Source: Basidiobolus meristosporus CBS 931.73 (Eukaryota > Basidiobolomycota > Basidiobolomycetes > Basidiobolales > Basidiobolaceae). From it: DNA of 24,330 bases. This document shows positions 894 through 24,330 of the stretch, in pieces (the stretch's first letter is position 1; each line of letters starts with the position of its first letter). The position numbers and the translations under genes were made by a program. The notes beneath the pieces are model-generated. The model worked only from the letters and a program-made list of their open reading frames with translations. It was not told where the DNA came from and made no database searches. The DNA lies in the NCBI GenBank assembly GCA_002104905.1, contig MCFE01000950.1, positions 1-24,330 of the forward strand, read 5' to 3'.

Positions 894-965
894 TGGAGGA
901 CCTGGGTATCGATCCAGTGCCTCTCGCATGCTAAGCGAGCGCTCTACCATCTGAGCTAGACCCCC
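894..965 (-). tRNA. tRNA-Ala(AGC), damaged by a 1-nt T-stem deletion
   Basis: Compared with the 73-nt copies at 10597-10669 and 14611-14683, this copy lacks one base in the T arm: the 5' T strand reads CTGG instead of CTGGG. That breaks the 5-bp T stem and shifts the TTC-type loop. The acceptor stem, with its G3:U70 identity pair, and the AGC anticodon loop are intact. It lies directly against the scrambled junction. It may be a pseudogene, although B-box spacing is only slightly changed. Confidence 0.85.
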
Positions 966-1338
966 AAATATGTGAATATTTGGAGATACACATCTATCTC
1001 ATTTTGTGACCCATTTTAGAAATGAACGTCTTTATATTTACCTGCCCGCTTCTCTACTCTCTTGTAGATGCTACGAGTCTATATTTACTATCGAGAATGA
1101 GGCAACAAGTATGAATGTAAACTCGTGTATTGTACACATGATGAGTGTACTCTGGTAACTATCTATACTGCATTCACGCACTAAATGTCGGTCCTATTAG
1201 TTGGTAAGTTACCGAGGCTGCTCCTTGGTCAGACCACACTCATTTGTACACTATGTTCGTACCATGTCTTTTATCTATGCACTTACTCCAATTAAACTAT
1301 AGACCATCAAAATGAAATAGCTAGCGAGATAAAAGAGA
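966..1338. other. Ala-Val spacer (373 bp), no gene seen
   Basis: Repeated at 10670-11042, 14238-14610, 18565-18937 and 22894-23266. The end beside tRNA-Ala holds a short AT-rich inverted repeat. The rest shows no A/B boxes and no credible reading frame. Single-base variants distinguish copies: 18565-18937 and 22894-23266 share variants that 14238-14610 lacks. Confidence 0.85.
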
Positions 1339-1412
1339 TGTCTTCGCTCGGATTCGAACCGAGGACCGTCTGTGTGTTAGACAGACGTGATAACCAACTA
1401 CACCACGAAGAC
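1339..1412 (-). tRNA. tRNA-Val(AAC)
   Basis: 74-nt copy, the reverse complement of 423-496 and identical by eye. An A4 run at 1331-1334 gives a T4 terminator on the minus strand. Confidence 0.98.
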
Positions 1413-1697
1413 ATGCTTGATTTATAGCGCTTTTTAACATTAATTTGCTTTATACGTGACTTGCGATTGTATGTGAGGAAACTTCGAGAGTACAATCATA
1501 TTTTGTGTCATCCAATTCTTATGTTGTGCGGTGCTTACCAATACGAGGGAGAATGTGCATATAGAGTTACCAAAAAATTATTTTACTATTTACAAGCTAT
1601 CGCAGATATCCTAAATTAATCCCATTTATTTGGTCAGTACAAATATGAAGGTGGTGTTGAAGACGAATCAAACTAAGCTTGGGAAGCTATGGAAAGT

Positions 1698-1769
1698 GGG
1701 GGGTTGGCGCAACGGTAGCGCGTTCGCCTCCAGAGCGAAAGGTTGCGTGTTCAAATCACGCACTCCTCA
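1698..1769 (+). tRNA. tRNA-Trp(CCA)
   Basis: Decodes UGG. The acceptor GGGGGGT pairs with ACTCCTC through two G:U pairs, and the discriminator is A. The D stem is GCGC/GCGC, the anticodon stem TTCGC/GCGAA with loop CTCCAGA (anticodon CCA), and the T stem GCGTG/CACGC with loop TTCAAAT. There is no intron. The T5 run at 1776-1780 is the likely terminator. It sits head to head with tRNA-Val (minus) across a 285-bp spacer, so the two start sites diverge from it. Confidence 0.98.
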
Positions 1770-1799
1770 CTTCTCTTTTTCTCATTCTGGACGATGAAT

Positions 1800-1827
1800 A
1801 CCTATATCTATATATATATATATATTT
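1800..1827. repeat. AT microsatellite downstream of tRNA-Trp
   Basis: A TA dinucleotide run next to a TATATC motif, present in all six copies of this spacer. I count eight TA units in both F copies (here and about 11509-11529) and seven in the four R-orientation copies (start of window, 13751, 18079 and 22408 regions). The length difference separates the two array lineages. Confidence 0.75.
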
Positions 1828-1964
1828 GCTTTTTTGATTGCACCTGTGTTATGTGGAACGTCTCTATTTTGCACTATCCTACTGTGGCAATCAAGCTTTT
1901 GTTGCCCGAGTTATCTTTTTGATGGCATGAGTTATATTACATTCAAGATGGAAATCTCTCGAAA

Positions 1965-2038
1965 GCTCGCATAGCTCAGTTGGTTAGAGCGTGGTGCTAA
2001 TAACGCCAAGGTCGCAGGTTCGACCCCTGCTGTGAGCA
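1965..2038 (+). tRNA. tRNA-Ile(AAT)
   Basis: Decodes isoleucine AUU/AUC/AUA through inosine at position 34 (inferred). The acceptor GCTCGCA pairs with TGTGAGC, discriminator A. The D stem is GCTC/GAGC, the anticodon stem TGGTG/CGCCA with loop CTAATAA (AAT), and the T stem GCAGG/CCTGC with loop TTCGACC. T4 lies at 2044-2047. Same strand as Trp upstream and Asp downstream. Confidence 0.98.
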
Positions 2039-2361
2039 TTATCTTTTATCCTTTATTATTGATCTTTTTGTGTATCAGCTAAAGATTCCCTAGCATTGTG
2101 TGGACTATTGTTGCTTAAGTGGTCACAAGTTTAATATTCGGGTGGTCCCAATGTTGTGCTTATGATGTTATATGCGCACCCAGTCACTCCCTAACCCAAA
2201 TCCAGTATATAAAAATATAAGCACCTATACCCTGATTGCAAGGCATTTCACGAAATACGTATTTATGCTTGTAGTATTGTAAATGTACATGCCAACGCAT
2301 GAGGCTTTACTTTGCCAACAGAGTACTCTTGTTGTATAATCTTTGTATCTTCACAACCAAT
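2039..2361. other. Ile-Asp spacer (323 bp), no gene seen
   Basis: Copies lie at 11743-12065, 13217-13539, 17544-17866 and 21873-22195. An AT-rich TATATAAAAATATAA stretch at 2206-2220 is conserved, but it is about 140 bp from tRNA-Asp, too far to be that gene's TATA element. Confidence 0.85.
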
Positions 2362-2433
2362 TCTCAGATAGTATAGTGGTAAGTATCCCCGCCTGTCACG
2401 CGGGAGACCCGGGTTCAATTCCCGGTCTGAGAG
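2362..2433 (+). tRNA. tRNA-Asp(GTC)
   Basis: Decodes GAC/GAU. The acceptor TCTCAGA pairs with TCTGAGA and the discriminator is G, as expected for Asp. The anticodon stem is CCCGC/GCGGG around CTGTCAC (GTC), and the T stem is CCGGG/CCCGG with loop TTCAATT. Eight Ts at 2435-2442 form the strongest terminator in the unit. Confidence 0.98.
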
Positions 2434-2741
2434 CTTTTTTTTGGCATTAATTCTCGACACAGAAAATATGTGATCACCAGTTTGGACTATCGGGTGTCCC
2501 GTTGATATTTTTGATAGGCCCTTTTTGATTTGGTGACATAACCATTAAAAAGTTTCCTGTATTCTGCTTGGCATGTCATAGATGTAAGGATATTTATCCG
2601 TGTTTGAGCTCTAGTTTGTGCCTACATAGAATCAATGACACATTCACCATGTTCTGCGAAGCAAAATAATATTGATATTCTACTTGGCGTTATCATTATT
2701 GTGTGCTTTTTGTAAAGAAAGTGGTTTCTTCTTGCTGAAAT
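2434..2741. other. Asp-Arg spacer (308 bp), no gene seen
   Basis: Copies lie at 12138-12445, 12837-13144, 17164-17471 and 21493-21800. It carries fixed differences between F and R copies: CTCGACAC against CTCGATAC, and a T/C change in the TTTTTGATTTGG stretch. Confidence 0.85.
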
Positions 2742-2814
2742 GGGCGTATGGCCAAATGGATAAGGCGCCTGACTACGGATCAGGAGATTCCAGGTTCGAT
2801 CCCTGGTATGCTCG
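2742..2814 (+). tRNA. tRNA-Arg(ACG)
   Basis: Decodes arginine CGN codons. The acceptor GGGCGTA pairs with TATGCTC using two G:U pairs, discriminator G. The anticodon stem is CCTGA/TCAGG around CTACGGA (ACG), and the T stem is CCAGG/CCTGG with loop TTCGATC. T6 lies at 2818-2823. The base after the next spacer motif (GCCCAAGGG here) varies in number between copies. Confidence 0.98.
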
Positions 2815-3141
2815 TTCTTTTTTGCCAATCCTTGATCGATTGCCCAAGGGTTTCTGCTTCATTTTTGCGCTAACCATGATTGCCGTAAGAGTATTGAGGA
2901 AGCTGTAGAGTACAATCTCAATAGAACGCATATATTCATTGACATGGTATCATCATTGCACCGCGCTAACGGGAATAGTGTTTGCGTATGTTTATTAAAC
3001 ATATATCAGGGAAACGTGTAAGACAGCATAGCTTTTGAAAGTAGAACATTGTTAATAAACGCCTTGCTCATCTACAAAAGTTTATTTCCCTCGTTATTAG
3101 TTGATAAACATACTATCAAGCTCACCTTTAAGCTGTCTATA
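2815..3141. other. Arg-Gly spacer (327 bp), no gene seen
   Basis: Copies lie at 16765-17090 and 21093-21419. A shortened and altered form, 12519-12713, ends at the large inverted junction. Nothing gene-like is seen. Confidence 0.85.
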
Positions 3142-3212
3142 GCATACTTGGTTTAGTGGTATAATTACCGCCTGCCACGCGGTAGACCGGGGTTCGATTC
3201 CCCGAGTATGCA
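3142..3212 (+). tRNA. tRNA-Gly(GCC)
   Basis: Decodes GGC/GGU. The acceptor GCATACT pairs perfectly with AGTATGC, discriminator A. The anticodon stem is ACCGC/GCGGT around CTGCCAC (GCC), and the T stem is CGGGG/CCCCG with loop TTCGATT. At 71 nt it is the shortest tRNA here. T4 follows at once at 3213-3216. Confidence 0.98.
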
Positions 3213-3876
3213 TTTTGACAACCTTTTATGATTTCCACTCTACAATAAAGTGGCACACTCAGTACAATCCCTCAATTTGCCGCTACAATCAACTTCCAAA
3301 TTGGTCATGTGTGCTGTGGCATTTAATATCTTTATTCAAATTGGCTTTGTGGTTTCCTCTTTTACTAGCCACTATATTCCACCTCTTAACACTTTCCCAG
3401 TAAAATGGGTTTGCTGGCTAGCGTATTAGCACATTGTCTTCAGCTCCGCCCCAGTCTAGGGTTCCGGAAAACATATACTTTTAGGCTGGACACGGGTGGA
3501 AATTTTCGGCTACGATTTTCTAAAATTTATGCATAACCGGCTTCCACCTCTGGCGCTTAGGTATTACCTAAATCATATCCACACCACGGAGTCGAACCTG
3601 TTCTTTTTGCGCTGCATCTAATCAACAAGGCCAACATCACTGGAAACCCTAAGCTAGATTAATTTGCCCACCCTACATCAAGAATGAATTGAAGTGAACC
3701 GTAAGAAGGCCTGAAGCACTCCATGATTGTATAAAGATATACGTTGCCATACAAGATGCTTTGGTTGGTGATGGTGCTACTTGTCAAGTGCGCTGCGCTC
3801 TAAAATCTATCATACGGGGTTGAACTAGAGTTTCTTGAAATACAAATTAGGTTCATGTGCGTAAACCCATAATAAT
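3213..3876. other. Long Gly-Thr spacer (664 bp) with a tRNA-like B-box
   Basis: This is the longest gene-free part of the unit, repeated at 16031-16693 and 20358-21021. I see no tRNA with a full cloverleaf, no 5S rRNA and no credible coding frame. It does hold a B-box match on the minus strand at 3588-3598, a 13-bp palindrome TAGGTATTACCTA at 3558-3570, and an inverted pair GGTGGAA (3495-3501) / TTCCACC (3542-3548). Near 3794-3826 this F copy differs from the R copies at a few bases. Confidence 0.8.
3588..3598 (-). promoter_or_regulatory. B-box-like element or tRNA relic
   Basis: On the minus strand this reads GGTTCGACTCC, an exact fit to the Pol III B-box consensus GGTTCGANTCC. The flanks do not make a good T stem (only the two inner pairs form), and no convincing anticodon arm lies upstream. 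It is repeated unchanged at 16308-16318 and 20636-20646. It could be a decayed thirteenth tRNA gene or an isolated TFIIIC site. Either reading is inference. Confidence 0.4.
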
Positions 3877-3949
3877 GCCTCCTTGGCTCAGTTGGCAGAG
3901 CGTCTGCCTAGTAAGCAGAAGGTCGCTGGTTCGATTCCGGCAGAAGGCA
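3877..3949 (+). tRNA. tRNA-Thr(AGT)
   Basis: Decodes threonine ACN codons. The acceptor GCCTCCT faces AGAAGGC with a C5:A68 mismatch found in all three copies. The discriminator is A. The anticodon stem is TCTGC/GCAGA around CTAGTAA (AGT), and the T stem is GCTGG/CCGGC with one T:G pair and loop TTCGATT. T5 lies at 3950-3954. It is the last tRNA before the retrotransposon. Confidence 0.97.
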
Positions 3950-4204
3950 TTTTTACATCTTATATTACCTCAGAGAGATGTACCATTTTGCACTGGACCT
4001 ACTAAAGAAAGCTTTCAGAGCGTGGCCAGCTTTACTTCATCCAGCCTCGGTTTTAATGATTATTTGTTCGAACGCCTTTTGGAGATGGTTTTTTTTTTGC
4101 AAAAGTAGTAATATCGGAGATCAAATTTGACAAGTATTACAGGGTCCGCATGATGGTATGTTGGCAGATAGATATAAGTATAATGCATTAGTAAGATAAC
4201 AAAT

Positions 4205-4208
4205 TAAG
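4205..4208. repeat. Left target-site duplication TAAG
   Basis: TAAG precedes the 5' LTR and recurs just after the 3' LTR at 9587-9590. The uninterrupted site in the other units (for example 15684-15694 on the minus strand) has TAAG once. Ty3 itself makes 5-bp duplications; here only 4 bp match. Confidence 0.88.
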
Positions 4209-4518
4209 TGTTATGATTTAAATCCTAACTAGTCACTACCGATCACTTGAACACTACTGATCGAACACCTGGAATTCCACACAGACGATCAATCGCACTC
4301 AGTGATACACACGTTATTTAATACATCTTGAACCCTCCTTTTGGAAGCTTGCCCTACGTTATCGGAAGCTCTCCCTCCGAGGCTATCTCTATATAAACTC
4401 CTTTGAACACTATCAATAAAGCATCAACCTTTTACCGGTTCATCAACTATTCAGATAACCTCTCTGATTCGTATTGGACATCCTCCGGTCCTCCTCCGCT
4501 TGCCCTCGATTCATAACA
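4209..4518 (+). repeat. 5' LTR
   Basis: 310 bp, bounded by the 7-bp inverted termini TGTTATG and CATAACA. It contains a TATATAAA box at 4390-4397 and AATAAA at 4415-4420, so U3 is probably about 4209-4415. The R/U5 boundaries cannot be fixed from sequence alone. Confidence 0.95.
4390..4397 (+). promoter_or_regulatory. LTR TATA box (Pol II)
   Basis: TATATAAA lies in the promoter part of the 5' LTR and is repeated at 9458-9465 in the 3' LTR. No ATG occurs between it and the Gag-Pol start codon. Confidence 0.7.
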
Positions 4519-4519
4519 T

Positions 4520-4531
4520 TGGTAGCAGCGA
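4520..4531 (+). other. Primer-binding site (tRNA primer for minus-strand DNA)
   Basis: TGGTAGCAGCGA begins two bases after the 5' LTR. TGG pairs with the universal CCA tail, and TGGTAGC resembles sites primed by initiator tRNA-Met in other fungal LTR elements. The match to a specific tRNA cannot be tested here, because no tRNA-Met is in the window. None of the 12 array tRNAs has a matching 3' end. Confidence 0.65.
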
Positions 4532-4558
4532 ACCTCCGATCTCCAAAAAACAAAAACC

Positions 4559-4755
4559 TCCGTACCTCCCAGAAACTTTTCCAATCTCTCAGAAACTCTT
4601 CCGATCTCCCAGAAACTTTTCCAATCTCTCAGAAACTCTTCCGATCTCCCAGAAACTTTTCCAATCTCTCAGAAACTCTTCCGATCTCCCAGAAACTCTT
4701 CCGATCTCCCAGAAACTCTTCCGATCTCCCAGATATTCTTCCAATTGTCCAGAGA
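4559..4755 (+). repeat. 20-bp tandem repeats in the retrotransposon leader
   Basis: About nine to ten pyrimidine-rich copies of a 20-bp motif based on CCGATCTCCCAGAAACTCTT, alternating with variants CCAATCTCTC and ending in degraded copies. The first copy is 21 bp. It lies in the 5' leader between the primer-binding site and the Gag start. Because 20 is not a multiple of three and the motif lacks stops, forward frames stay open across it, giving frames without an ATG start (4474-4923 and 4500-4919). The role is unknown. Confidence 0.88.
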
Positions 4756-4915
4756 TACCCTCCGTACCTGCCCGAGACCCTCCCAACCTCCCAGAGAAAC
4801 CCTCCGTTTCACTCAAAAAAAGAAAAAAAACAGTACCCAGTCAATTCTGCCAGAGAACCAGCCCCCTTGGTAAACACACCCGCCTACCGCAAATCAAACA
4901 ATACCCAAAAACAAA

Positions 4916-7900
4916 ATGAGTGAAGAAAAGCCAAAATTTAGCTCTTCAGAAGAAATGTTGGCCTATATTGAGAGTCTTGAACAACAAGTTGCTGAGTTAG
5001 CCGGTCAAGGACAGTCCCACACAACTGAGCCTGCGGCCCTCCCTAGTCTGGACCCAAGAATGGGTAGGCAGACAGACTTGGACTCTTTACATTTTGTGAA
5101 CACCCAGAGATCATGGTTTACTGGTCAAGGTATACAGAGAGAGGGTGAAGCCTCATCTGTAAGACCTGCGGTGCCTCCCAATTCCTTGAATCTTGGAGAA
5201 GATGGGCAAGGCTCTCTGGACTTCACAAAACAATATAGAGCAACAAATCTGAAACTTCAGAAACCCAACATCTTTGAAGGCAAAAGACACACTGCCACTC
5301 TAGAGACTTGGATATTTGAAGTAGAGCAGTACCTATACTTCTCAGATGACTCTGAAGAAGTCAAAGTACATTATGCCTGTTCACTTTTCAGAAAGGAAGC
5401 AACCATGTGGTGGAAACTTCACATTCAAGGAATGAATAGGGGCATCTTTCCACCCATAGCCTCCTGGGCTGACTTTGTTAAAGCATTGAGAAAGAGGTTT
5501 ACACCTATCAATGCTGATAGAATGGCAAGAGAAAAACTGTCCAAACTCTTTCAAGCCAAGTCTGTTCAAGAGTACAATGAGCAGTTTAACTTGCTTAGTA
5601 TGGAAATTCAAAACATGCCTGATACTGAACTACTTGAGCAATACCTAAGAGGCCTGAAATCCAACACTAGATGGGAAATTGAATACAAAGACCCCAAAAC
5701 CCTAGTAGAGGCTATGGAACTGGCAGAAAGATATGATGCCATACACTTCAGAAGGGCTGTCAACCACAGAATTGGTCACTCAAGAACTACTACAGGCCTC
5801 AAAGCCAATAACCACATACCTATTGGTAGTCAACCAATCACTGAACAAGGTGCACACTACCCCCACACACTGGAGCCTATGGACCTAGATGTTATGCAGA
5901 GCACACCAAGACCTTCTAAAGAGGAATGCTTCAAGCTTGGACTATGCTTTTACTGCAAGGAACAGGGTCATAAAGTCAATGAATGCCCAAAGAGGCCATT
6001 ACAAAGAGTATTCCAACTCTCCACTAAGGAGGAGGAGCACACAATCAGCCTTGTTAAGGAGTATCAGAGGACTCAGAGCTTATATACTACCCCAAAGATG
6101 CTGAAACTCCCAGGGATTCTCAACAACAACCAATGTGTCTCTGTACTCATTGACAGTGGAGCAACTGATGTCTACATTTCAAAAGATGTAGCTGATCAGA
6201 TGAAGCTACAAACAATCCCTTGCCCCCCAATTCACATCCTCTGTGCCACCAAGGAATCAATTATAGTGAACAGCAGGACTGAACCCTTGACTTTACAAAT
6301 CAGGGACTTCCAAGACACCATTTCCCCAATTATCATACCCCAAGCCAACTTTGAAATCAATGTGGGACAAACTTGGCTAAGAAAGCACAATCCTGACATA
6401 AACTGGCAGACTCAGGAAGTTGTAATCAACAAGGATGATGCAAAATATCATCTGTCACCCAAACCAACCCTGGACAAAGGCAATGCACCAGAACACACCA
6501 TATCAAAGAAACAGTTTGCCCACTCTATCAGACAGAATCCCAAACTGTTGCACATGATAGCCTTTGCCAAAATCCAAGAGACCACAGAAGTGACAAATGA
6601 CAGGCTCAAGACCTTGTTAGCAGAGTTTCAAGAGGTTTTTCCCAAGGAAATCCCTGCACTACCCCCAAGCAGAGAGATTGACCATGCCATAGAAGTAACA
6701 GATGATAAACCAAGAAACAGAGCCCCATATAAGTTCTCCCCAAAGGAAATGGAGACTTTGAAGGAAACATTGAAGGACTACCTGGCTAAAGGCTGGATAA
6801 AACCCAGTAAATCACCATGGGGAGCTCCAGTACTCTTTGCTCCAAAGAAGGATGGGAAGCTACGGTTCTGTGTGGACTACAGGGCCCTAAATGCAATCAC
6901 TGTCAGAAATTCCTACCCATTACCAAGAATTGATGCCCTCTTTGACCAACTGGGGAAGGCAAAGATATTCTCTAAAATAGACCTGGCATCTGGATATCAC
7001 CAAATCAGAATTAAGCCTGAAGACACCTCTAAGACAGCATTCAACACAAGATATGGTCATTATGAGTTTGTTGTGATGAGCTTTGGCCTGACTAATGCCC
7101 CAGCAACATTTCAGACACTCATGAATAGCATCCTGGAACCATATTTAGAGAAATTTGTCCTGGTCTACTTAGATGACATTCTGATCTATAGTACCAGCAT
7201 GGATGACCACATGAAGCACTTGAAGACAGTACTGGCTATACTAAAAAAGCACAAGCTATATGCACAACTTCCTAAGTGTGAATTCCTCACCAGATCAGTT
7301 GAATACCTTGGTCACATAATCTCAGATAAAGGACTACACATGGATCCAGCCAAGATAGATGCTATCCAGAAATGGGAAGCCCCAAAGTCACTCACTGAAA
7401 TGAGATCCTTCCTGGGACTTGCATCATATTACAGAAGATTCATCAGGGACTTTGCAACTATTGCAGCCCCCCTTACAGACTTGACCAAAAAAGAGAAAGA
7501 CTATATATGGACCCCAAACTGTGAGACAGCTTTCCTAACTCTGAAAGAAAAGCTATGCCAAACCCCTGTGCTTCAGTTGCCTGATTTCTCAGAACCTTTC
7601 TGTGTATACACTGATGCTTCAGATCTAGCTGTTGGAGGGGTACTGACTCAAAAAGAACACCCGGTTGCTTATGAGTCCAAAAAGCTATCAGTAACTGAAC
7701 AAAACTACCCAGTCCATGAAAAAGAACTCTATGCCATACTACATTGTCTGAGAGTGTGGAGATGCTACTTGGAGGGCAAACACTTTGTGGTATATACAGA
7801 TCATGCATCCCTAAGATACATTCACACCCAGAAGCTATTATCCAGAAGAATAACTAGATGGATTGAAGAACTACAACAATTTGATTTTAAAATCCACTAC

Positions 7901-9265
7901 CTCCCTGGGCCAAAGAATACAGTTGCTGATGCACTCTCAAGGCAACATATATCAATGGTAGATCATGAGTTGGACTGGCCAGAATACATGCCAGAGTACT
8001 TGGCAAGTCAGACAATGCCAGAAGATTTATCACAGGAAGTAAGGGTCAAGATTAAGAAAGAAGCAGAGAATTTCTCATATGGTGAAGACGAGGTACTTTA
8101 CAGACACATGGAAGAAATAGGGCCTGTACCATATATTCCATTTGTATACAGAGGTGACATGATAATCAAGAATCATAAAGCCTTTGGACATCTGGGCATC
8201 CAAGGAACTTATGAAATAACTAAAAGGAGAGCCTGGTGGCCTAAACTCAAACAATTTATAGCTGAGACCCTCAAGACCTGCCCTGAGTGCCAGCTGGCTA
8301 GACCATACAACAAGGAACATGCCCCATTAGAACCACTGACTCCAGTTCCAGCATTCTACAGATGGGGAATTGACTTCATTGGAATATTGCCTGAAACTTC
8401 AAGAGGGAACAAGTGGATCATAACTGCAATTGACCATACCACTAAGTGGTGTATAGCAAAAGCCATGCCAGCAGCTACTGCAAAAAATGTTGCAAAATTC
8501 CTTTACCTGGAAATCTTTATGCAGTTTGGATGCCCAGGTGAAATTCTGTCTGACAGAGGAGCAAACTTTTTGGAACAAACCTTGAAAGAATACCTTCAGA
8601 TAATGGGGGTTAGACATTTGAAGACATCAGCATACCACCCTAGAACAAATGGGGTCACAGAGAGGTTCAATGGACTCTTTGGGAAGATGCTGACTACTTA
8701 TGTCAAAGGAGCCAAACATAAGTGGGATGAATTTGTACATCAAGCACTCTTTGCCTGTCGTATTAGAGTCCATTCAGCAACACAAAAGTCCCCCTTCTAC
8801 CTAGTGTATGGTACACATCCAAGAATCCCAGGTGATACCTTACCACCATACATCTGGGACTTAAAGAACCAAAAAGACTTGGCAGAATTCAGAACAAGGG
8901 AACTGGAAGAATTAGGACATGCAAGACATGATGCCATCAAGAATTTAAAACGACAAGCAGAGAAGATGAAAGAACAGTACAACAAAACAGTGGTAACAAA
9001 ACCCTTAACTTTGGGAAAACTTGTATTAGTCCGAAATGAAAGTAGGCTAAAACTAGAACCACATTGGGTTGGACCCTTTATTATCACAAGAGAAATGCCC
9101 TTCAATACATTTCAACTCGCAGACATGTCAGGTAAAGTAAAGGAGGACCTAGTGCATAGAGACCGACTAAAGGAAGCACAGCTAAAAAACCCAATGACAC
9201 CACCAACCAAATACTGGTATTACAAGTCCGATAGACAGGACTCTTCAGGAGAAGAACCTCTTTAA
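4916..9265 (+). CDS. Gag-Pol polyprotein of the Ty3-type retrotransposon
   Basis: A single 1449-residue frame with no frameshift between gag and pol. The start is the first ATG after the LTR; the roughly 400-nt leader has none. The N-terminus has a short coiled-coil-like segment (about 9-30), then a Gag capsid-type domain (about 118-280) and a CCHC zinc knuckle at 344-357 for RNA binding. The protease active site is DSGA at 413-416. Reverse transcriptase has catalytic D689 and YLDD at 751-754. RNase H acidic residues are D900, E937 and D962. Integrase has an HHCC zinc site (H1087, H1092, C1122, C1125) and a catalytic D1153, D1213, E1249 triad with the classic 35-residue spacing. A GPF motif at 1386-1388 follows. 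No chromodomain is recognisable in the last 60 residues. All key residues are present, so the protein is predicted functional. Confidence 0.96.
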
Positions 9266-9276
9266 GTGTGGGAGTA
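9266..9276 (+). other. Polypurine-like tract
   Basis: GTGTGGGAGTA lies between the Gag-Pol stop codon and the 3' LTR, where the plus-strand primer is normally made. It is short and not purely purine, so the exact primer is uncertain. Confidence 0.6.
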
Positions 9277-9586
9277 TGTTATGATTTAAATCCTAACTAG
9301 TCACTACCGATCACTTGAACACTACTGATCGAACACCTGGAATTCCACACAGACGATCAATCGCACTCAGTGATACACACGTTATTTAATACATCTTGAA
9401 CCCTCCTTTTGGAAGCTTGCCCTACGTTATCGGAAGCTCTCCCTCCGAGGCTATCTCTATATAAACTCCTTTGAACACTATCAATAAAGCATCAACCTTT
9501 TACCGGTTCATCAACTATTCAGATAACCTCTCTGATTCGTATTGGACATCCTCCGGTCCTCCTCCGCTTGCCCTCGATTCATAACA
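9277..9586 (+). repeat. 3' LTR
   Basis: 310 bp, identical by eye to the 5' LTR at 4209-4518. It carries the same TATATAAA (9458-9465) and AATAAA. It now supplies the whole upstream region of tRNA-Tyr at 9597. Confidence 0.95.
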
Positions 9587-9590
9587 TAAG
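9587..9590. repeat. Right target-site duplication TAAG
   Basis: Matches 4205-4208. Six bases separate it from the mature 5' end of tRNA-Tyr. Confidence 0.88.
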
Positions 9591-9596
9591 TATATT

Positions 9597-9679
9597 CCGA
9601 ACATAGCTCAGTTGGTAGAGCGGAAGACTGTAGTGTTATAGCAATCTTTAGGTCCCTGGTTCAAATCCGGGTGTTCGGA
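9597..9679 (+). tRNA. tRNA-Tyr(GTA) with a 10-nt intron
   Basis: Decodes UAC/UAU. The acceptor CCGAACA pairs with TGTTCGG, discriminator A. The D stem is GCTC/GAGC and the anticodon stem GAAGA/TCTTT. The loop is 17 nt; removing ten bases (TGTTATAGCA, 9634-9643) after G37 leaves CTGTAGA, anticodon GTA. The T stem is CCTGG/CCGGG. T5 lies at 9681-9685. This copy has a retrotransposon LTR in place of its normal upstream flank, but its internal A and B boxes are untouched. Confidence 0.98.
9634..9643 (+). other. tRNA-Tyr intron (10 nt)
   Basis: TGTTATAGCA lies at the canonical eukaryotic site between positions 37 and 38. It is removed by the tRNA splicing endonuclease. Every tRNA-Tyr copy fully covered by the window has the same intron. 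Confidence 0.9.
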
Positions 9680-15600: not shown

Positions 15601-15683
15601 TCCGAACACCCGGATTTGAACCAGGGACCTAAAGATTGCTATAACACTACAGTCTTCCGCTCTACCAACTGAGCTATGTTCGG
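15601..15683 (-). tRNA. tRNA-Tyr(GTA) with a 10-nt intron
   Basis: Reverse complement of 9597-9679 with the same intron. Its upstream flank is the uninterrupted form of the retrotransposon target: 15684-15694 shows the single target sequence (CTTA at 15690-15693, complement of TAAG). Confidence 0.98.
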
Positions 15684-15957
15684 AATATACTTAATTTTGG
15701 GTTTTATCTTACTAAATGCATTATACTTACTATCTATCTGCCCAACATACCATCATGCGGACCCTGTAATACTTGTCAAATTTGATCTCCGATATTACTA
15801 CTTTTGCAAAAAAAAAACCATCTCCAAAAGGCGTTCGAACAAATAATCATTAAAACCGAGGCTGGATGAAGTAAAGCTGGCCACGCTCTGAAAGGCTTTC
15901 TTTAGTAGGTCCAGTGCAAAATGGTACATCTCTCTGAGGTAATATAAGATGTAAAAA

Positions 15958-16030
15958 TGCCTTCTGCCGGAATCGAACCAGCGACCTTCTGCTTACTAGG
16001 CAGACGCTCTGCCAACTGAGCCAAGGAGGC
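15958..16030 (-). tRNA. tRNA-Thr(AGT)
   Basis: Reverse complement of 3877-3949, with the same C5:A68 acceptor mismatch. Confidence 0.97.
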
Positions 16031-16693
16031 ATTATTATGGGTTTACGCACATGAACCTAATTTGTATTTCAAGAAACTCTAGTTCAACCCTGTCTGATAG
16101 ATTTTCGAGCGCAGCGCACTTGACAAGTAGCACCATCACCAACCAAAGCATCTTGTATGGCAACGTATATCTTTATACAATCATGGAGTGCTTCAGGCCT
16201 TCTTACGGTTCACTTCAATTCATTCTTGATGTAGGGTGGGCAAATTAATCTAGCTTAGGTTTCCAGTGATGTTGGCCTTGTTGATTAGATGCAGCGCAAA
16301 AAGAACAGGTTCGACTCCGTGGTGTGGATATGATTTAGGTAATACCTAAGCGCCAGAGGTGGAAGCCGGTTATGCATAAATTTTAGAAAATCGTAGCCGA
16401 AAATTTCCACCCGTGTCCAGCCTAAAAGTATATGTTTTCCGGAACCCTAGACTGGGGCGGAGCTGAAGACAATGTGCTAATACGCTAGCCAGCAAACCCA
16501 TTTTACTGGGAAAGTGTTAAGAGGTGGAATATAGTGGCTAGTAAAAGAGGAAACCACAAAGCCAATTTGAATAAAGATATTAAATGCCACAGCACACATG
16601 ACCAATTTGGAAGTTGATTGTAGCGGCAAATTGAGGGATTGTACTGAGTGTGCCACTTTATTGTAGAGTGGAAATCATAAAAGGTTGTCAAAA
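16031..16693. other. Long Thr-Gly spacer (663 bp), copy 2
   Basis: Inverted copy of 3213-3876 with the B-box match on the plus strand at 16308-16318. An open frame at 16051-16248 has an ATG, but it is intact only in the R copies and has no family features. Confidence 0.8.
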
Positions 16694-16764
16694 TGCATAC
16701 TCGGGGAATCGAACCCCGGTCTACCGCGTGGCAGGCGGTAATTATACCACTAAACCAAGTATGC
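16694..16764 (-). tRNA. tRNA-Gly(GCC)
   Basis: Reverse complement of 3142-3212, identical by eye. Confidence 0.98.
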
Positions 16765-17090
16765 TATAGACAGCTTAAAGGTGAGCTTGATAGTATGTTT
16801 ATCAATTAATAACGAGGGAAATAAACTTTTGTAGATGAGCAAGGCGTTTATTAACAATGTTCTACTTTCAAAAGCTATGCTGTCTTACACGTTTCCCTGA
16901 TATATGTTTAATAAACATACGCAAACACTATTCCCGTTAGCGCGGTGCAATGATGATACCATGTCAATGAATATATGCGTTCTATTGAGATTGTACTCTA
17001 CAGCTTCCTCAATACTCTTACGGCAATCATGGTTAGCGCAAAAATGAAGCAGAAACCCTGGGCAATCGATCAAGGATTGGCAAAAAAGAA

Positions 17091-17163
17091 CGAGCATACC
17101 AGGGATCGAACCTGGAATCTCCTGATCCGTAGTCAGGCGCCTTATCCATTTGGCCATACGCCC
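17091..17163 (-). tRNA. tRNA-Arg(ACG)
   Basis: Direct repeat of 12764-12836, 4327 bp on. Confidence 0.98.
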
Positions 17164-17471
17164 ATTTCAGCAAGAAGAAACCACTTTCTTTACAAAAAGC
17201 ACACAATAATGATAACGCCAAGTAGAATATCAATATTATTTTGCTTCGCAGAACATGGTGAATGTGTCATTGATTCTATGTAGGCACAAACTAGAGCTCA
17301 AACACGGATAAATATCCTTACATCTATGACATGCCAAGCAGAATACAGGAAACTTTTTAATGGTTATGTCACCAAGTCAAAAAGGGCCTATCAAAAATAT
17401 CAACGGGACACCCGATAGTCCAAACTGGTGATCACATATTTTCTGTATCGAGAATTAATGCCAAAAAAAAG

Positions 17472-17543
17472 CTCTCAGACCGGGAATTGAACCCGGGTCT
17501 CCCGCGTGACAGGCGGGGATACTTACCACTATACTATCTGAGA
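17472..17543 (-). tRNA. tRNA-Asp(GTC)
   Basis: Direct repeat of 13145-13216. Confidence 0.98.
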
Positions 17544-17866
17544 ATTGGTTGTGAAGATACAAAGATTATACAACAAGAGTACTCTGTTGGCAAAGTAAAG
17601 CCTCATGCGTTGGCATGTACATTTACAATACTACAAGCATAAATACGTATTTCGTGAAATGCCTTGCAATCAGGGTATAGGTGCTTATATTTTTATATAC
17701 TGGATTTGGGTTAGGGAGTGACTGGGTGCGCATATAACATCATAAGCACAACATTGGGACCACCCGAATATTAAACTTGTGACCACTTAAGCAACAATAG
17801 TCCACACAATGCTAGGGAATCTTTAGCTGATACACAAAAAGATCAATAATAAAGGATAAAAGATAA

Positions 17867-17940
17867 TGCTCACAGCAGGGGTCGAACCTGCGACCTTGGC
17901 GTTATTAGCACCACGCTCTAACCAACTGAGCTATGCGAGC
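17867..17940 (-). tRNA. tRNA-Ile(AAT)
   Basis: Direct repeat of 13540-13613. Confidence 0.98.
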
Positions 17941-18133
17941 TTTCGAGAGATTTCCATCTTGAATGTAATATAACTCATGCCATCAAAAAGATAACTCGGG
18001 CAACAAAAGCTTGATTGCCACAGTAGGATAGTGCAAAATAGAGACGTTCCACATAACACAGGTGCAATCAAAAAAGCAAATATATATATATATAGATATA
18101 GGTATTCATCGTCCAGAATGAGAAAAAGAGAAG

Positions 18134-18205
18134 TGAGGAGTGCGTGATTTGAACACGCAACCTTTCGCTCTGGAGGCGAACGCGCTACCGTTGCGCCAAC
18201 CCCCC
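18134..18205 (-). tRNA. tRNA-Trp(CCA)
   Basis: Direct repeat of 13807-13878. Confidence 0.98.
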
Positions 18206-18490
18206 ACTTTCCATAGCTTCCCAAGCTTAGTTTGATTCGTCTTCAACACCACCTTCATATTTGTACTGACCAAATAAATGGGATTAATTTAGGATATCTG
18301 CGATAGCTTGTAAATAGTAAAATAATTTTTTGGTAACTCTATATGCACATTCTCCCTCGTATTGGTAAGCACCGCACAACATAAGAATTGGATGACACAA
18401 AATATGATTGTACTCTCGAAGTTTCCTCACATACAATCGCAAGTCACGTATAAAGCAAATTAATGTTAAAAAGCGCTATAAATCAAGCAT

Positions 18491-18564
18491 GTCTTCGTGG
18501 TGTAGTTGGTTATCACGTCTGTCTAACACACAGACGGTCCTCGGTTCGAATCCGAGCGAAGACA
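18491..18564 (+). tRNA. tRNA-Val(AAC)
   Basis: Direct repeat of 14164-14237. The 3' flank reads GCTGTTTG, a variant shared only with the next unit. Confidence 0.98.
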
Positions 18565-18937
18565 TCTCTTTTATCTCGCTAGCTGTTTGATTTTGATGGT
18601 CTATAGTTTAATTGGAGTAAGTGCATAGATAAAAGACATGGTACGAACATAGTGTACAAATGAGTGTGGTCTGACCAAGGAGCAGCCTCGGTAACTTACC
18701 AACTAATAGGACCGACATTTAGTGCGTGAATGCAGTATAGATAGTTACCAGGGTACACTCATCATGTGTACAATACACGAGTTTACATTCATACTTGTTG
18801 CCTCATTCTCGATAGTAAATATAGACTCGTAGCATCTACAAGAGAGTAGAGAAGCGGGCAGGTAAATATAAAGACGTTCATTTCTAAAATGGGTCACAAA
18901 ATGAGATAGATGTGTATCTCCATATATTCACATATTT

Positions 18938-19010
18938 GGGGGTCTAGCTCAGATGGTAGAGCGCTCGCTTAGCATGCGAGAGGCACTGGGATCGATACCC
19001 AGGTCCTCCA
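18938..19010 (+). tRNA. tRNA-Ala(AGC)
   Basis: Direct repeat of 14611-14683. The upstream AT hairpin has one unpaired position here (CCATATAT). Confidence 0.97.
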
Positions 19011-19158
19011 TTTTGAACCAAAGCACTGCTTGGGATAACTTTTGGCTACGAACTCGAGGATATTTGGTGCTCGCAAGTAGTAGAGGTCGTCGTATTGTTA
19101 TGCGTAGCATGCAAGTTGTAAAACGATGAAGACCAAAATCCATAAAAGTAATAAAAGA

Positions 19159-19230
19159 AGGACGCAGGCGGATTTGAACCACCGACCTATTGATCTGCAG
19201 TCAATTGCTCTACCACTGAGCTATACGTCC
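19159..19230 (-). tRNA. tRNA-Cys(GCA)
   Basis: Direct repeat of 14832-14903. Confidence 0.98.
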
Positions 19231-19334
19231 AAGCTTAGGTTGCTCCAACCATTGATATACCATATACTCCAGATTCGATTATCAAGTATATTTTGAGGTA
19301 ACCAATCCACGATGGATATCTAAAAAGAGTAGTG

Positions 19335-19407
19335 CACCCAACGTGGGGGTCGAACCCACAACCTTGAGATTAAGAGTCTCACGCTCTACCGATTGAGCTA
19401 GCCGGGC
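19335..19407 (-). tRNA. tRNA-Lys(CTT)
   Basis: Direct repeat of 15008-15080. The 5' flank has TATTGAT in place of TATTAAT. Confidence 0.97.
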
Positions 19408-19713
19408 TTATATTGATACTCACGCGTAGGTACCTGTAATGTTTCTTACGGAAACATGGAGTGAAATATCCTTAACTATATTGTGTGCTAGAGTGAAGCG
19501 AGAAAAGCCAAAGATACTCTTTATACCCAGAAAAGTACAGAATCTTGCTTTGCTGAAGGTGGCATTTCAACTCATTTTCCATTAAAGTGTACTCCGCGTA
19601 ACTTAAATCCGGCATATGGCTGTGAGGTGGAACATTGACAGGAATTTTCTTGTCAGATACTATACGGAAGAATATACAGCTTTGAATCTAGGTGAAGAAT
19701 GCCCAAGTGTGAA

Positions 19714-19787
19714 GCTCTTGTGGCGCAATTGGCTAGCGCGTCTGACTGTTAATCAGGAGGTTGGTGGTTCAAGCCCACCCAGGAGCG
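19714..19787 (+). tRNA. tRNA-Asn(GTT)
   Basis: Direct repeat of 15387-15460. Confidence 0.98.
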
Positions 19788-19927
19788 TTCCTTTTCTTTT
19801 TGAATACGCATTTTAGAATTGGCTCGTAGCAAACTAGTTAACATGTATGTCCCATTTATTTTCATTCCACAAGTAGATTCTCTTCGAAAATAAAAATATC
19901 GTAATGCTTACCAAAATAATTAAAAAG

Positions 19928-20010
19928 TCCGAACACCCGGATTTGAACCAGGGACCTAAAGATTGCTATAACACTACAGTCTTCCGCTCTACCAACTGAG
20001 CTATGTTCGG
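19928..20010 (-). tRNA. tRNA-Tyr(GTA) with a 10-nt intron
   Basis: Direct repeat of 15601-15683. It also has the empty retrotransposon target just upstream (CTTA at 20017-20020). Confidence 0.98.
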
Positions 20011-20284
20011 AATATACTTAATTTTGGGTTTTATCTTACTAAATGCATTATACTTACTATCTATCTGCCCAACATACCATCATGCGGACCCTGTAATACT
20101 TGTCAAATTTGATCTCCGATATTACTACTTTTGCAAAAAAAAAACCATCTCCAAAAGGCGTTCGAACAAATAATCATTAAAACCGAGGCTGGATGAAGTA
20201 AAGCTGGCCACGCTCTGAAAGGCTTTCTTTAGTAGGTCCAGTGCAAAATGGTACATCTCTCTGAGGTAATATAAGATGTAAAAA

Positions 20285-20357
20285 TGCCTTCTGCCGGAAT
20301 CGAACCAGCGACCTTCTGCTTACTAGGCAGACGCTCTGCCAACTGAGCCAAGGAGGC
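20285..20357 (-). tRNA. tRNA-Thr(AGT)
   Basis: Direct repeat of 15958-16030. Confidence 0.97.
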
Positions 20358-21021
20358 ATTATTATGGGTTTACGCACATGAACCTAATTTGTATTTCAAG
20401 AAACTCTAGTTCAACCCTGTCTGATAGATTTTCGAGCGCAGCGCACTTGACAAGTAGCACCATCACCAACCAAAGCATCTTGTATGGCAACGTATATCTT
20501 TATACAATCATGGAGTGCTTCAGGCCTTCTTACGGTTCACTTCAATTCATTCTTGATGTAGGGTGGGCAAATTAATCTAGCTTAAGGTTTCCAGTGATGT
20601 TGGCCTTGTTGATTAGATGCAGCGCAAAAAGAACAGGTTCGACTCCGTGGTGTGGATATGATTTAGGTAATACCTAAGCGCCAGAGGTGGAAGCCGGTTA
20701 TGCATAAATTTTAGAAAATCGTAGCCGAAAATTTCCACCCGTGTCCAGCCTAAAAGTATATGTTTTCCGGAACCCTAGACTGGGGCGGAGCTGAAGACAA
20801 TGTGCTAATACGCTAGCCAGCAAACCCATTTTACTGGGAAAGTGTTAAGAGGTGGAATATAGTGGCTAGTAAAAGAGGAAACCACAAAGCCAATTTGAAT
20901 AAAGATATTAAATGCCACAGCACACATGACCAATTTGGAAGTTGATTGTAGCGGCAAATTGAGGGATTGTACTGAGTGTGCCACTTTATTGTAGAGTGGA
21001 AATCATAAAAGGTTGTCAAAA
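20358..21021. other. Long Thr-Gly spacer (664 bp), copy 3
   Basis: Direct repeat of 16031-16693 with one extra A; B-box match at 20636-20646. No gene seen. Confidence 0.8.
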
Positions 21022-21092
21022 TGCATACTCGGGGAATCGAACCCCGGTCTACCGCGTGGCAGGCGGTAATTATACCACTAAACCAAGTATGC
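21022..21092 (-). tRNA. tRNA-Gly(GCC)
   Basis: Direct repeat of 16694-16764, 4328 bp on. Confidence 0.98.
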
Positions 21093-21419
21093 TATAGACA
21101 GCTTAAAGGTGAGCTTGATAGTATGTTTATCAATTAATAACGAGGGAAATAAACTTTTGTAGATGAGCAAGGCGTTTATTAACAATGTTCTACTTTCAAA
21201 AGCTATGCTGTCTTACACGTTTCCCTGATATATGTTTAATAAACATACGCAAACACTATTCCCGTTAGCGCGGTGCAATGATGATACCATGTCAATGAAT
21301 ATATGCGTTCTATTGAGATTGTACTCTACAGCTTCCTCAATACTCTTACGGCAATCATGGTTAGCGCAAAAATGAAGCAGAAACCCCTGGGCAATCGATC
21401 AAGGATTGGCAAAAAAGAA

Positions 21420-21492
21420 CGAGCATACCAGGGATCGAACCTGGAATCTCCTGATCCGTAGTCAGGCGCCTTATCCATTTGGCCATACGCCC
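21420..21492 (-). tRNA. tRNA-Arg(ACG)
   Basis: Direct repeat of 17091-17163, 4329 bp on. Confidence 0.98.
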
Positions 21493-21800
21493 ATTTCAGC
21501 AAGAAGAAACCACTTTCTTTACAAAAAGCACACAATAATGATAACGCCAAGTAGAATATCAATATTATTTTGCTTCGCAGAACATGGTGAATGTGTCATT
21601 GATTCTATGTAGGCACAAACTAGAGCTCAAACACGGATAAATATCCTTACATCTATGACATGCCAAGCAGAATACAGGAAACTTTTTAATGGTTATGTCA
21701 CCAAGTCAAAAAGGGCCTATCAAAAATATCAACGGGACACCCGATAGTCCAAACTGGTGATCACATATTTTCTGTATCGAGAATTAATGCCAAAAAAAAG

Positions 21801-21872
21801 CTCTCAGACCGGGAATTGAACCCGGGTCTCCCGCGTGACAGGCGGGGATACTTACCACTATACTATCTGAGA
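21801..21872 (-). tRNA. tRNA-Asp(GTC)
   Basis: Direct repeat of 17472-17543. Confidence 0.98.
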
Positions 21873-22195
21873 ATTGGTTGTGAAGATACAAAGATTATAC
21901 AACAAGAGTACTCTGTTGGCAAAGTAAAGCCTCATGCGTTGGCATGTACATTTACAATACTACAAGCATAAATACGTATTTCGTGAAATGCCTTGCAATC
22001 AGGGTATAGGTGCTTATATTTTTATATACTGGATTTGGGTTAGGGAGTGACTGGGTGCGCATATAACATCATAAGCACAACATTGGGACCACCCGAATAT
22101 TAAACTTGTGACCACTTAAGCAACAATAGTCCACACAATGCTAGGGAATCTTTAGCTGATACACAAAAAGATCAATAATAAAGGATAAAAGATAA

Positions 22196-22269
22196 TGCTC
22201 ACAGCAGGGGTCGAACCTGCGACCTTGGCGTTATTAGCACCACGCTCTAACCAACTGAGCTATGCGAGC
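22196..22269 (-). tRNA. tRNA-Ile(AAT)
   Basis: Direct repeat of 17867-17940. Confidence 0.98.
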
Positions 22270-22462
22270 TTTCGAGAGATTTCCATCTTGAATGTAATAT
22301 AACTCATGCCATCAAAAAGATAACTCGGGCAACAAAAGCTTGATTGCCACAGTAGGATAGTGCAAAATAGAGACGTTCCACATAACACAGGTGCAATCAA
22401 AAAAGCAAATATATATATATATAGATATAGGTATTCATCGTCCAGAATGAGAAAAAGAGAAG

Positions 22463-22534
22463 TGAGGAGTGCGTGATTTGAACACGCAACCTTTCGCTCT
22501 GGAGGCGAACGCGCTACCGTTGCGCCAACCCCCC
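22463..22534 (-). tRNA. tRNA-Trp(CCA)
   Basis: Direct repeat of 18134-18205. Confidence 0.98.
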
Positions 22535-22819
22535 ACTTTCCATAGCTTCCCAAGCTTAGTTTGATTCGTCTTCAACACCACCTTCATATTTGTACTGACC
22601 AAATAAATGGGATTAATTTAGGATATCTGCGATAGCTTGTAAATAGTAAAATAATTTTTTGGTAACTCTATATGCACATTCTCCCTCGTATTGGTAAGCA
22701 CCGCACAACATAAGAATTGGATGACACAAAATATGATTGTACTCTCGAAGTTTCCTCACATACAATCGCAAGTCACGTATAAAGCAAATTAATGTTAAAA
22801 AGCGCTATAAATCAAGCAT

Positions 22820-22893
22820 GTCTTCGTGGTGTAGTTGGTTATCACGTCTGTCTAACACACAGACGGTCCTCGGTTCGAATCCGAGCGAAGACA
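22820..22893 (+). tRNA. tRNA-Val(AAC)
   Basis: Direct repeat of 18491-18564, with the same GCTGTTTG flank. Confidence 0.98.
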
Positions 22894-23266
22894 TCTCTTT
22901 TATCTCGCTAGCTGTTTGATTTTGATGGTCTATAGTTTAATTGGAGTAAGTGCATAGATAAAAGACATGGTACGAACATAGTGTACAAATGAGTGTGGTC
23001 TGACCAAGGAGCAGCCTCGGTAACTTACCAACTAATAGGACCGACATTTAGTGCGTGAATGCAGTATAGATAGTTACCAGGGTACACTCATCATGTGTAC
23101 AATACACGAGTTTACATTCATACTTGTTGCCTCATTCTCGATAGTAAATATAGACTCGTAGCATCTACAAGAGAGTAGAGAAGCGGGCAGGTAAATATAA
23201 AGACGTTCATTTCTAAAATGGGTCACAAAATGAGATAGATGTGTATCTCCATATATTCACATATTT

Positions 23267-23339
23267 GGGGGTCTAGCTCAGATGGTAGAGCGCTCGCTTA
23301 GCATGCGAGAGGCACTGGGATCGATACCCAGGTCCTCCA
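23267..23339 (+). tRNA. tRNA-Ala(AGC)
   Basis: Direct repeat of 18938-19010, intact T stem. Confidence 0.97.
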
Positions 23340-23487
23340 TTTTGAACCAAAGCACTGCTTGGGATAACTTTTGGCTACGAACTCGAGGATATTTGGTGCT
23401 CGCAAGTAGTAGAGGTCGTCGTATTGTTATGCGTAGCATGCAAGTTGTAAAACGATGAAGACCAAAATCCATAAAAGTAATAAAAGA

Positions 23488-23559
23488 AGGACGCAGGCGG
23501 ATTTGAACCACCGACCTATTGATCTGCAGTCAATTGCTCTACCACTGAGCTATACGTCC
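23488..23559 (-). tRNA. tRNA-Cys(GCA)
   Basis: Direct repeat of 19159-19230. Confidence 0.98.
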
Positions 23560-23663
23560 AAGCTTAGGTTGCTCCAACCATTGATATACCATATACTCCA
23601 GATTCGATTATCAAGTATATTTTGAGGTAACCAATCCACGATGGATATCTAAAAAGAGTAGTG

Positions 23664-23736
23664 CACCCAACGTGGGGGTCGAACCCACAACCTTGAGATT
23701 AAGAGTCTCACGCTCTACCGATTGAGCTAGCCGGGC
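23664..23736 (-). tRNA. tRNA-Lys(CTT)
   Basis: Direct repeat of 19335-19407. Confidence 0.97.
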
Positions 23737-24042
23737 TTATATTGATACTCACGCGTAGGTACCTGTAATGTTTCTTACGGAAACATGGAGTGAAATATCC
23801 TTAACTATATTGTGTGCTAGAGTGAAGCGAGAAAAGCCAAAGATACTCTTTATACCCAGAAAAGTACAGAATCTTGCTTTGCTGAAGGTGGCATTTCAAC
23901 TCATTTTCCATTAAAGTGTACTCCGCGTAACTTAAATCCGGCATATGGCTGTGAGGTGGAACATTGACAGGAATTTTCTTGTCAGATACTATACGGAAGA
24001 ATATACAGCTTTGAATCTAGGTGAAGAATGCCCAAGTGTGAA

Positions 24043-24116
24043 GCTCTTGTGGCGCAATTGGCTAGCGCGTCTGACTGTTAATCAGGAGGTTGGTGGTTCA
24101 AGCCCACCCAGGAGCG
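24043..24116 (+). tRNA. tRNA-Asn(GTT)
   Basis: Direct repeat of 19714-19787. Confidence 0.98.
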
Positions 24117-24256
24117 TTCCTTTTCTTTTTGAATACGCATTTTAGAATTGGCTCGTAGCAAACTAGTTAACATGTATGTCCCATTTATTTTCATTCCACA
24201 AGTAGATTCTCTTCGAAAATAAAAATATCGTAATGCTTACCAAAATAATTAAAAAG

Positions 24257-24330
24257 TCCGAACACCCGGATTTGAACCAGGGACCTAAAGATTGCTATAA
24301 CACTACAGTCTTCCGCTCTACCAACTGAGC
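24257..24330 (-). tRNA. tRNA-Tyr(GTA), truncated by the window edge
   Basis: Direct repeat of 19928-20010 as far as the window goes. The last nine bases (the 5' end of the gene) lie outside. Confidence 0.95.

Follow-up and report, generated by a model that had tools for sequence, protein, structure and literature searches.

Does the 24,330 bp contig MCFE01000950.1 of Basidiobolus meristosporus CBS 931.73, on which transfer RNA (tRNA) genes follow one another in a repeated order, hold a genuine tandem array, and is such an arrangement found elsewhere in the same genome? In well-studied fungi tRNA genes are mostly scattered. The window analyzed here is this complete contig (C1258 among the contig numbers used below) from an assembly of 89,006,234 bases in 1,311 contigs. 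We consider it very probable that B. meristosporus possesses tandem arrays of RNA polymerase III (Pol III) genes organized in the manner of ribosomal DNA (rDNA), and that these arrays have been invaded by a Ty3-like long terminal repeat (LTR) element. Every match to tRNA-Trp or tRNA-Cys that we found lies in an array or cluster, as do many further tRNA genes and some 5S ribosomal RNA (rRNA) genes.

ARAGORN called 53 tRNA genes in the window and Rfam (RF00005) returned 54 matches above the gathering score, the additional one being a match truncated by the contig end which scored 38 bits while the other 53 scored 44–72 bits. The repeated unit, referred to as unit A, is 4,327 bp in length and carries 12 tRNA genes in the order Tyr (with an intron), Asn, Lys, Cys, Ala, Val, Trp, Ile, Asp, Arg, Gly, Thr; three of them (Asn, Ala and Val) are oriented opposite to the other nine. 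The intron-bearing tRNA was labelled unknown by ARAGORN, or Asp when introns were allowed, and is read here as Tyr-GTA because ARAGORN calls Tyr-GTA at that place in other units. On self-alignment, the right half of the window repeats directly at offsets of 4328 and 8656, and contig C713 at 4327. The original prediction for this DNA, of a repeated unit of approximately 4.33 kb with 12 different tRNA genes, is thus borne out by ARAGORN and self-alignment, and its fungal host is likewise supported. Its total of 54 tRNA genes agrees with Rfam, although two of these lie before base 894 and 52 within the region 894..24330 to which they had been assigned. A prokaryote or organellar tRNA array was rejected on the basis of A34 anticodons of the eukaryotic kind and the fungal host.

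Long stretches of the window (about 2–7 kb) align with one another at 99.4%–99.9% identity, and 846 bp at the contig end at 97.6%–97.9%. In the minus-strand arm (Table 1) bases 17042–24330 match 12714–20001 at 99.86% identity; between copies 1 and 2 there are 7 substitutions and 2 single-base indels, whereas a single indel separates copies 2 and 3 within the part covered by copy 3. The plus-strand arm (889–12,714) contains approximately 1.5 units and is interrupted by the LTR element. Among the window's first 15 genes, 14 are followed by a run of four or more T residues starting no more than 7 bases past the gene end, the exception being an Ala gene at the garbled contig end, and as each gene has its own downstream T-run the natural reading is that the genes are transcribed independently by Pol III. 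Three tandem repeats were reported in the window, all within the LTR element, and none was detected elsewhere in it.

The predicted 12-tRNA unit is present but it is not the only one. Eight unit types including unit A were found in the genome, the seven further ones measuring 3.3–5.5 kb with up to 17 tRNA genes and one of them also carrying a 5S rRNA gene (Table 1). Direct unit repeats of 3,268–5,488 bp were observed in nine contigs (C1258, C713, C964, C339, C275, C711, C426, C1268 and C615), mostly at 99.7%–100% identity, with copies 100% identical in C964, C275 and C711; the exceptions were the C1258 contig end mentioned above and a copy beside a foldback in C615 (99.1%). Gene counts for the C964, C426 and C615 types are minima because 637, 934 and 415 bases, respectively, are unread in those units. 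Blocks of gene order recur among the unit types, for example Ile-Asp-Arg-Gly-Thr, or Leu-Tyr-Asn-Lys-Ala with additions, indicating descent of the unit types from common blocks. The C713 array borders DNA with a calcium-ATPase gene, the frame of which matches a B. meristosporus CBS 931.73 protein at 100% identity from end to end, and is therefore chromosomal. Of eight genome matches to 5S rRNA, three are on contigs outside our sample (C1106, C1301, C752); the 5S genes of C339, C16, C615 and C1291 (Table 1) are in units of the C339 type. The C339 and C275 units have an identical period of 5,488 bp despite their different genes, which we take as a coincidence.

Gene and flank conservation were compared in six unit pairs, each having 8–11 genes in common once Met genes and any gene with an unread flank were set aside. 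Mean identity of the shared genes was 0.982–0.988 (lowest single gene, 0.919) whereas the 60-bp flanks gave 0.49–0.58, against 0.48–0.52 for shuffled upstream flanks; the highest flank identity (0.57–0.58) was that of the C275–C1268 pair. As genes approximately 98% alike stand between near-random flanks in these pairs, selection maintains the array genes. Concerted evolution would be expected to give such a result, high identity within arrays and flanks that are near-random from one unit type to another; it has also been proposed for the tRNA arrays of Entamoeba (PMC2652664).

A genome search with tRNA-Trp returned 21 matches (21/21 candidates scored), all 100% identical and all in arrays or clusters, with other tRNA genes nearby in the fetched stretches; for C1306 and C439 the neighbors are further tRNA matches a few kilobases away at most on the contig concerned. 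The tRNA-Cys search returned 18 matches (18/18 scored), 16 exact and two at 92%, and every one has tRNA neighbors in an array or cluster. In C1 the 92% match is incomplete, and ARAGORN makes no call there. These searches bear on a reading in which the arrays are mainly structural, as boundary, replication-fork or chromosome-organizing DNA, and the supply of tRNA is secondary. Such roles have been proposed elsewhere, a chromosome-end function for the Entamoeba arrays (PMC2652664) and a boundary element for a human tRNA tandem repeat (PMC4041453). We nevertheless regard this as unlikely in Basidiobolus, where no Trp match was found other than in arrays or clusters, the flanks are near-random while the genes are approximately 98% alike, and the genome has TTAGGG telomere repeats, with the tRNA units of C1 about 187 kb from the C1 telomere. 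Since TTAGGG repeats are present and the C1 units are internal, the arrays do not simply replace telomeres, and a general telomere-substitute role of the kind proposed for Entamoeba was rejected, TTAGGG being the sequence that ends contigs such as C1. The telomere word (TTAGGG)4 gave 7,428 overlapping forward matches and 81 reverse matches, with C1, C2, C21 and C22 among the contigs concerned; the C21 and C22 telomeres, among the places listed, both begin near base 19,770.

The element in the window is a Ty3/gypsy-type retrotransposon with a Ty3-type capsid and the domain order protease, reverse transcriptase, RNase H, integrase (PR-RT-RH-INT), flanked by a 4 bp target duplication (TAAG). The tRNA-Met type matched by its primer binding site is presumably the initiator tRNA. 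When the LTR was searched against the genome, 41 matches were obtained, 40 of them full-length (65 first-look candidates, 40 scored); 34 of the 40 are listed at 100% identity and six at 98%–99%. These 40 LTRs were grouped into 28 insertions, a figure that counts assembled copies, as C964 and C1 have inverted pairs that may each represent a single folded-back insertion and the 5S insertions in C16 and C615 are possibly copies of one event. The palindromic element copies within array contigs (C964:16190-22189, C1:157441-163747) are either true foldbacks or chimeric reads.

In 21 of the 28 insertions the element edge lies 9–12 bp upstream of a tRNA gene or, in C16 and C615, 6 bp upstream of a 5S gene. 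Eighteen of the 21 were read directly, and those in C439, C197 and one in C16 by way of the empty site in a different copy of the unit plus 4 bp, the C197 insertion being also seen directly at its other edge. Five insertions were read at one outer edge only (C1306, C964 at 21,877, C216, C1 at 163,438 and C1220). Under uniform placement, where 1.6% of sites would count, 21/28 has a probability of about 1e-32; this model was built after the distances had been seen and treats copies as independent, and as the fetched sequence is rich in tRNA genes its chance rate is above the genome-wide rate. The LTR element noted beside the unit in the original prediction is therefore no accidental neighbor but one of a family with a tendency to land beside Pol III genes. 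A 4-bp duplication was observed in 9 of 13 two-ended insertions, with C197 a further case; the remaining four (C439, C16, C1, C1291) have a duplication of neither 4 nor 5 bp. The C16 element without a 4-bp duplication has Ala of the C339-type unit on one flank and Val of the C275-type unit on the other (the Val flank was matched by eye, with one C different from the unit), and the corresponding C1 element lies between Thr and Leu-CAA. Such flanks from different targets could reflect either copies that recombined or an assembly mis-join.

Insertion at the start site, by analogy with the retrotransposons Ty3 and Tj1 (PMC5911963), suggests that a Pol III initiation complex forms on array genes and 5S genes in living cells. 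The same insertions, which point to occupancy by Pol III factors, argue against the arrays being tRNA-derived satellite DNA that is dead or silenced. An Arabidopsis tandem tRNA cluster is silent in most tissues (PMC12308677) and gives this idea a precedent, but the Rfam scores of all window matches save the truncated one, the conservation of genes against diverged flanks and a search that found no Trp gene outside arrays or clusters make it highly improbable here.

Several observations weigh against our interpretation of tandem, Pol III-targeted arrays. The tRNA genes seen are a sample only, picked by similarity to array genes or by score, the tRNA family search of the genome having scored 63 of 3,931 first-look candidates. 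Seven tRNA genes adjacent to the element (Arg-CCG, Arg-CCT, Pro-CGG, Leu-CAG and, three times, Thr-CGT) had no second tRNA gene in the approximately 260 bp fetched on each side, and because of these apparently lone genes array membership of every tRNA gene is not required. Six of the 28 insertions have no assigned target and one, in C713, is ambiguous, a 33-bp duplication separating the LTR from tRNA-Ile. The copy at C791:4758-10135 has a 4-bp duplication but no Pol III gene recognized by Rfam within approximately 260 bp on either side, and may mark a Pol III gene that escaped recognition. Rfam analysis of 13 short flank stretches gave two matches, neither of which altered the count: a Trp tRNA already known (stretch L062) and a 26-bit tRNA fragment truncated at the end of its stretch (L078). 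Foldback joins are present in C1258, C713, C964, C1, C16, C615, C970 and C1107, and as the window contig consists wholly of repeat and element with foldbacks, the order of the array may in part be an artefact of assembly or sequencing.

The foldbacks mean that the window array, predicted as a tandem array, is tandem inside each arm yet is not a single head-to-tail run, there being at least one internal switch of orientation at approximately 12,714. The arms flanking this turn show differences at 11,022, 11,513, 12,162 and 12,233 as well as an indel at 12,549, and owing to these variant sites they are not letter-for-letter copies of one molecule. Three small indels cluster at the turn itself (12,686, 12,703 and 12,705). 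The turn may be a real inversion or an artefact. CBS 931.73 was sequenced on the PacBio platform (PMC7466969), and if a missed adapter had produced a palindrome here the variants between the arms would speak against it while the crowded indels would fit, and polishing could have mixed reads of different copies. The turn at approximately 830–888 is probably an artefact of the contig end; C713 has the same kind of foldback at its left end, there in LTR element sequence, and for this reason the inversion of 1–829 probably arose from a chimeric read. On a broader scale, a single or few-copy tRNA cluster could have been multiplied and inverted by repeat mis-assembly or by chimeric palindromic PacBio reads. 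The window contig is wholly repeat and element, foldbacks occur in or at the ends of several contigs, indels crowd the 12,714 join, and the 100% identical copies in C964, C275 and C711 would also be expected from a circular mis-join. This explanation accounts more easily for the inversions than for the tandem units, however: unit A copies carry distinct variants (the 7 substitutions between copies 1 and 2), unit A occurs again in C713 at an offset of 4,327 bp followed by gene-bearing DNA, and direct repeats are found in nine contigs and eight unit types. We therefore judge it improbable as an account of the arrays.

Table 1. Features of the window (C1258) and of related units on other contigs of the assembly.
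Feature	Position or length	Strand	Basis or content
Inverted copy of 989-1,836 at contig end; garbled join 830-888	1..829	-	alignment
Plus-strand arm, first part	889..4208	+	ARAGORN, Rfam, alignment
tRNA-Ala	893-966	-
tRNA-Val	1337-1413	-
tRNA-Trp	1698-1770	+
tRNA-Ile	1965-2038	+
tRNA-Asp	2362-2434	+
tRNA-Arg	2741-2815	+
tRNA-Gly	3142-3212	+
tRNA-Thr	3876-3950	+
Ty3/gypsy-type LTR retrotransposon	4209..9586	+	right edge 10 bp upstream of tRNA-Tyr
Identical 310-bp LTRs	4209-4518, 9277-9586	+
Primer binding site	4520..4531	+	9-base match to 3' terminus of one tRNA-Met type; TGG corresponds to CCA end
gag-pol, single 1,449-aa frame	4916..9265	+	matches: Ty3 capsid, protease, reverse transcriptase, RNase H, integrase
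Plus-strand arm, second part	9587..12714	+	ARAGORN, Rfam, alignment
tRNA-Tyr, with intron	9597-9680	+
tRNA-Asn	9820-9893	-
tRNA-Lys	10200-10273	+
tRNA-Cys	10377-10448	+
tRNA-Ala	10598-10669	-
tRNA-Val	11041-11117	-
tRNA-Trp	11402-11474	+
tRNA-Ile	11669-11742	+
tRNA-Asp	12066-12138	+
tRNA-Arg	12445-12519	+
Orientation switch	12714		unit forward to equivalent of base 3,008, backward from equivalent of 2,864; about 145 bp unpaired
Minus-strand arm, approx. 2.7 copies of approx. 4,327-bp unit	12714..24330	-	copy starts 12,714; 17,042; 21,370
Complete unit A copy, 12 tRNA genes	15694..20020	-	ARAGORN
tRNA truncated by contig end	24257..24330	-	Rfam; position of Tyr in unit
C339-type unit	5,488 bp		14 tRNA genes + 5S rRNA
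C275-type unit	5,488 bp		17 tRNA genes
C964-type unit	5,227 bp		at least 15 tRNA genes
C1268-type unit	4,315 bp		14 tRNA genes
C711-type unit	3,268 bp		7 tRNA genes
C426-type unit	4,007 bp		at least 6 tRNA genes
C615-type unit	3,488 bp		at least 8 tRNA genes
5S rRNA gene	C339:4795-4913
5S rRNA gene	C16:3784
5S rRNA gene	C615:21228
5S rRNA gene	C1291:9616

The sequence itself shows how the units repeat, which genes they carry and in what common order, how far flanks have diverged in the compared unit pairs and where the element inserts; transcription, a dosage benefit, the mechanism of exchange and true copy number are our inferences. In the rDNA-like arrangement that we favor each array gene would be its own Pol III unit with an internal promoter and a downstream T-run, and one array copy would supply several kinds of tRNA as a set. 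The copies in an array would stay nearly identical through unequal exchange or gene conversion. The unit types would have been derived from related ancestral blocks through circular shifts, gene gains and gene losses, and would today have little in common beyond the genes themselves. The Pol III start site would be the landing place of the Ty3-like LTR retrotransposon, which may recently have spread through the arrays with the genes left unhit. A more tentative extension, on which we place limited weight, is that the Basidiobolus tRNA and 5S genes form rDNA-like loci whose units are shuffled by a Pol III-homing retrotransposon, the mixed-flank elements in C16 and C1 then being traces of exchanges that create new unit combinations.

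Tandem multi-tRNA arrays are already known from Entamoeba, oomycetes and vertebrates, although the 17-gene unit exceeds the parallels compared. The tRNA tandem unit of Xenopus has 8 genes in 3.18 kb. Entamoeba, which had been named as the closest described parallel, proved to be an apt choice, having tandem multi-tRNA units, several unit types per genome, 5S genes in some units and copies that are kept alike (PMC2652664). Its units are smaller, holding no more than 5 tRNA genes in E. histolytica and, in the largest named, that of E. invadens, 6 tRNA genes plus 5S in 2,364 bp (PMC2652664), compared with up to 17 in 5,488 bp in Basidiobolus. Short tandem repeats lie between the genes in E. histolytica and E. 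dispar, while the Basidiobolus window has none outside the LTR element; other Entamoeba species are also described as lacking consistent short tandem repeats (PMC2652664). The TTAGGG telomere repeats are a further difference. An Entamoeba-like organization would also place almost all tRNA genes of a genome in arrays; in Basidiobolus, where the isotypes counted were Trp and Cys, all 21 and all 18 matches, respectively, are in arrays or clusters, and some other tRNA genes appear single in the short stretches fetched beside the element. According to a 2010 survey, E. histolytica was until then the sole organism with reported tRNA tandem repeats (PMC2888827).

Phytophthora infestans is likewise a filamentous eukaryote with large tandem tRNA gene families, but its units are of one, two or three genes, whereas 6–17 tRNA genes were seen per unit in Basidiobolus; older Sanger assemblies of its relatives probably collapsed their tRNA arrays (PMC9584435). 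The human 1q23.3 locus resembles the Basidiobolus arrays in its kilobase units with several tRNA genes on both strands; its unit spans 7.3 kb and contains 5 tRNA genes, and further human tRNA genes are located elsewhere (PMC4041453); in contrast, every Basidiobolus Trp and Cys match found sits in arrays or clusters. We found no description of fungal units of up to 17 tRNA genes, nor any literature on Basidiobolus tRNA arrays or on the Basidiobolus element, in a search that covered few subscription papers and so leaves absence unproven.

The Basidiobolus element duplicates 4 bp of its target and does not match Ty3 in this respect, which duplicates 5 bp. It shares with Ty3 and Tj1 a Ty3/gypsy gag-pol and insertion at Pol III start sites, including those of 5S genes in the case of Tj1, and hosts described for such Pol III-targeting elements are yeasts and Dictyostelium (PMC5911963). 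It differs from both in that many of its copies lie inside multi-gene tandem arrays.

If the interpretation as rDNA-like arrays is true, an Entamoeba-like layout arose independently in a fungus in which every Trp gene found is in homogenized multi-isotype arrays or clusters. Because the unit types share gene order and not flanks, Basidiobolus would have kept a record of array growth. The system makes testable both the balancing of tRNA dosage by arrays and the use of arrays as a safe haven by a Ty3-like element. In three unit types tRNA-Ser(AGA) and tRNA-Ile(AAT) are only 4 bp apart, in the manner of a dimeric precursor (L041:1863-2024, L058:2846-3007 and L034:1002-1163).

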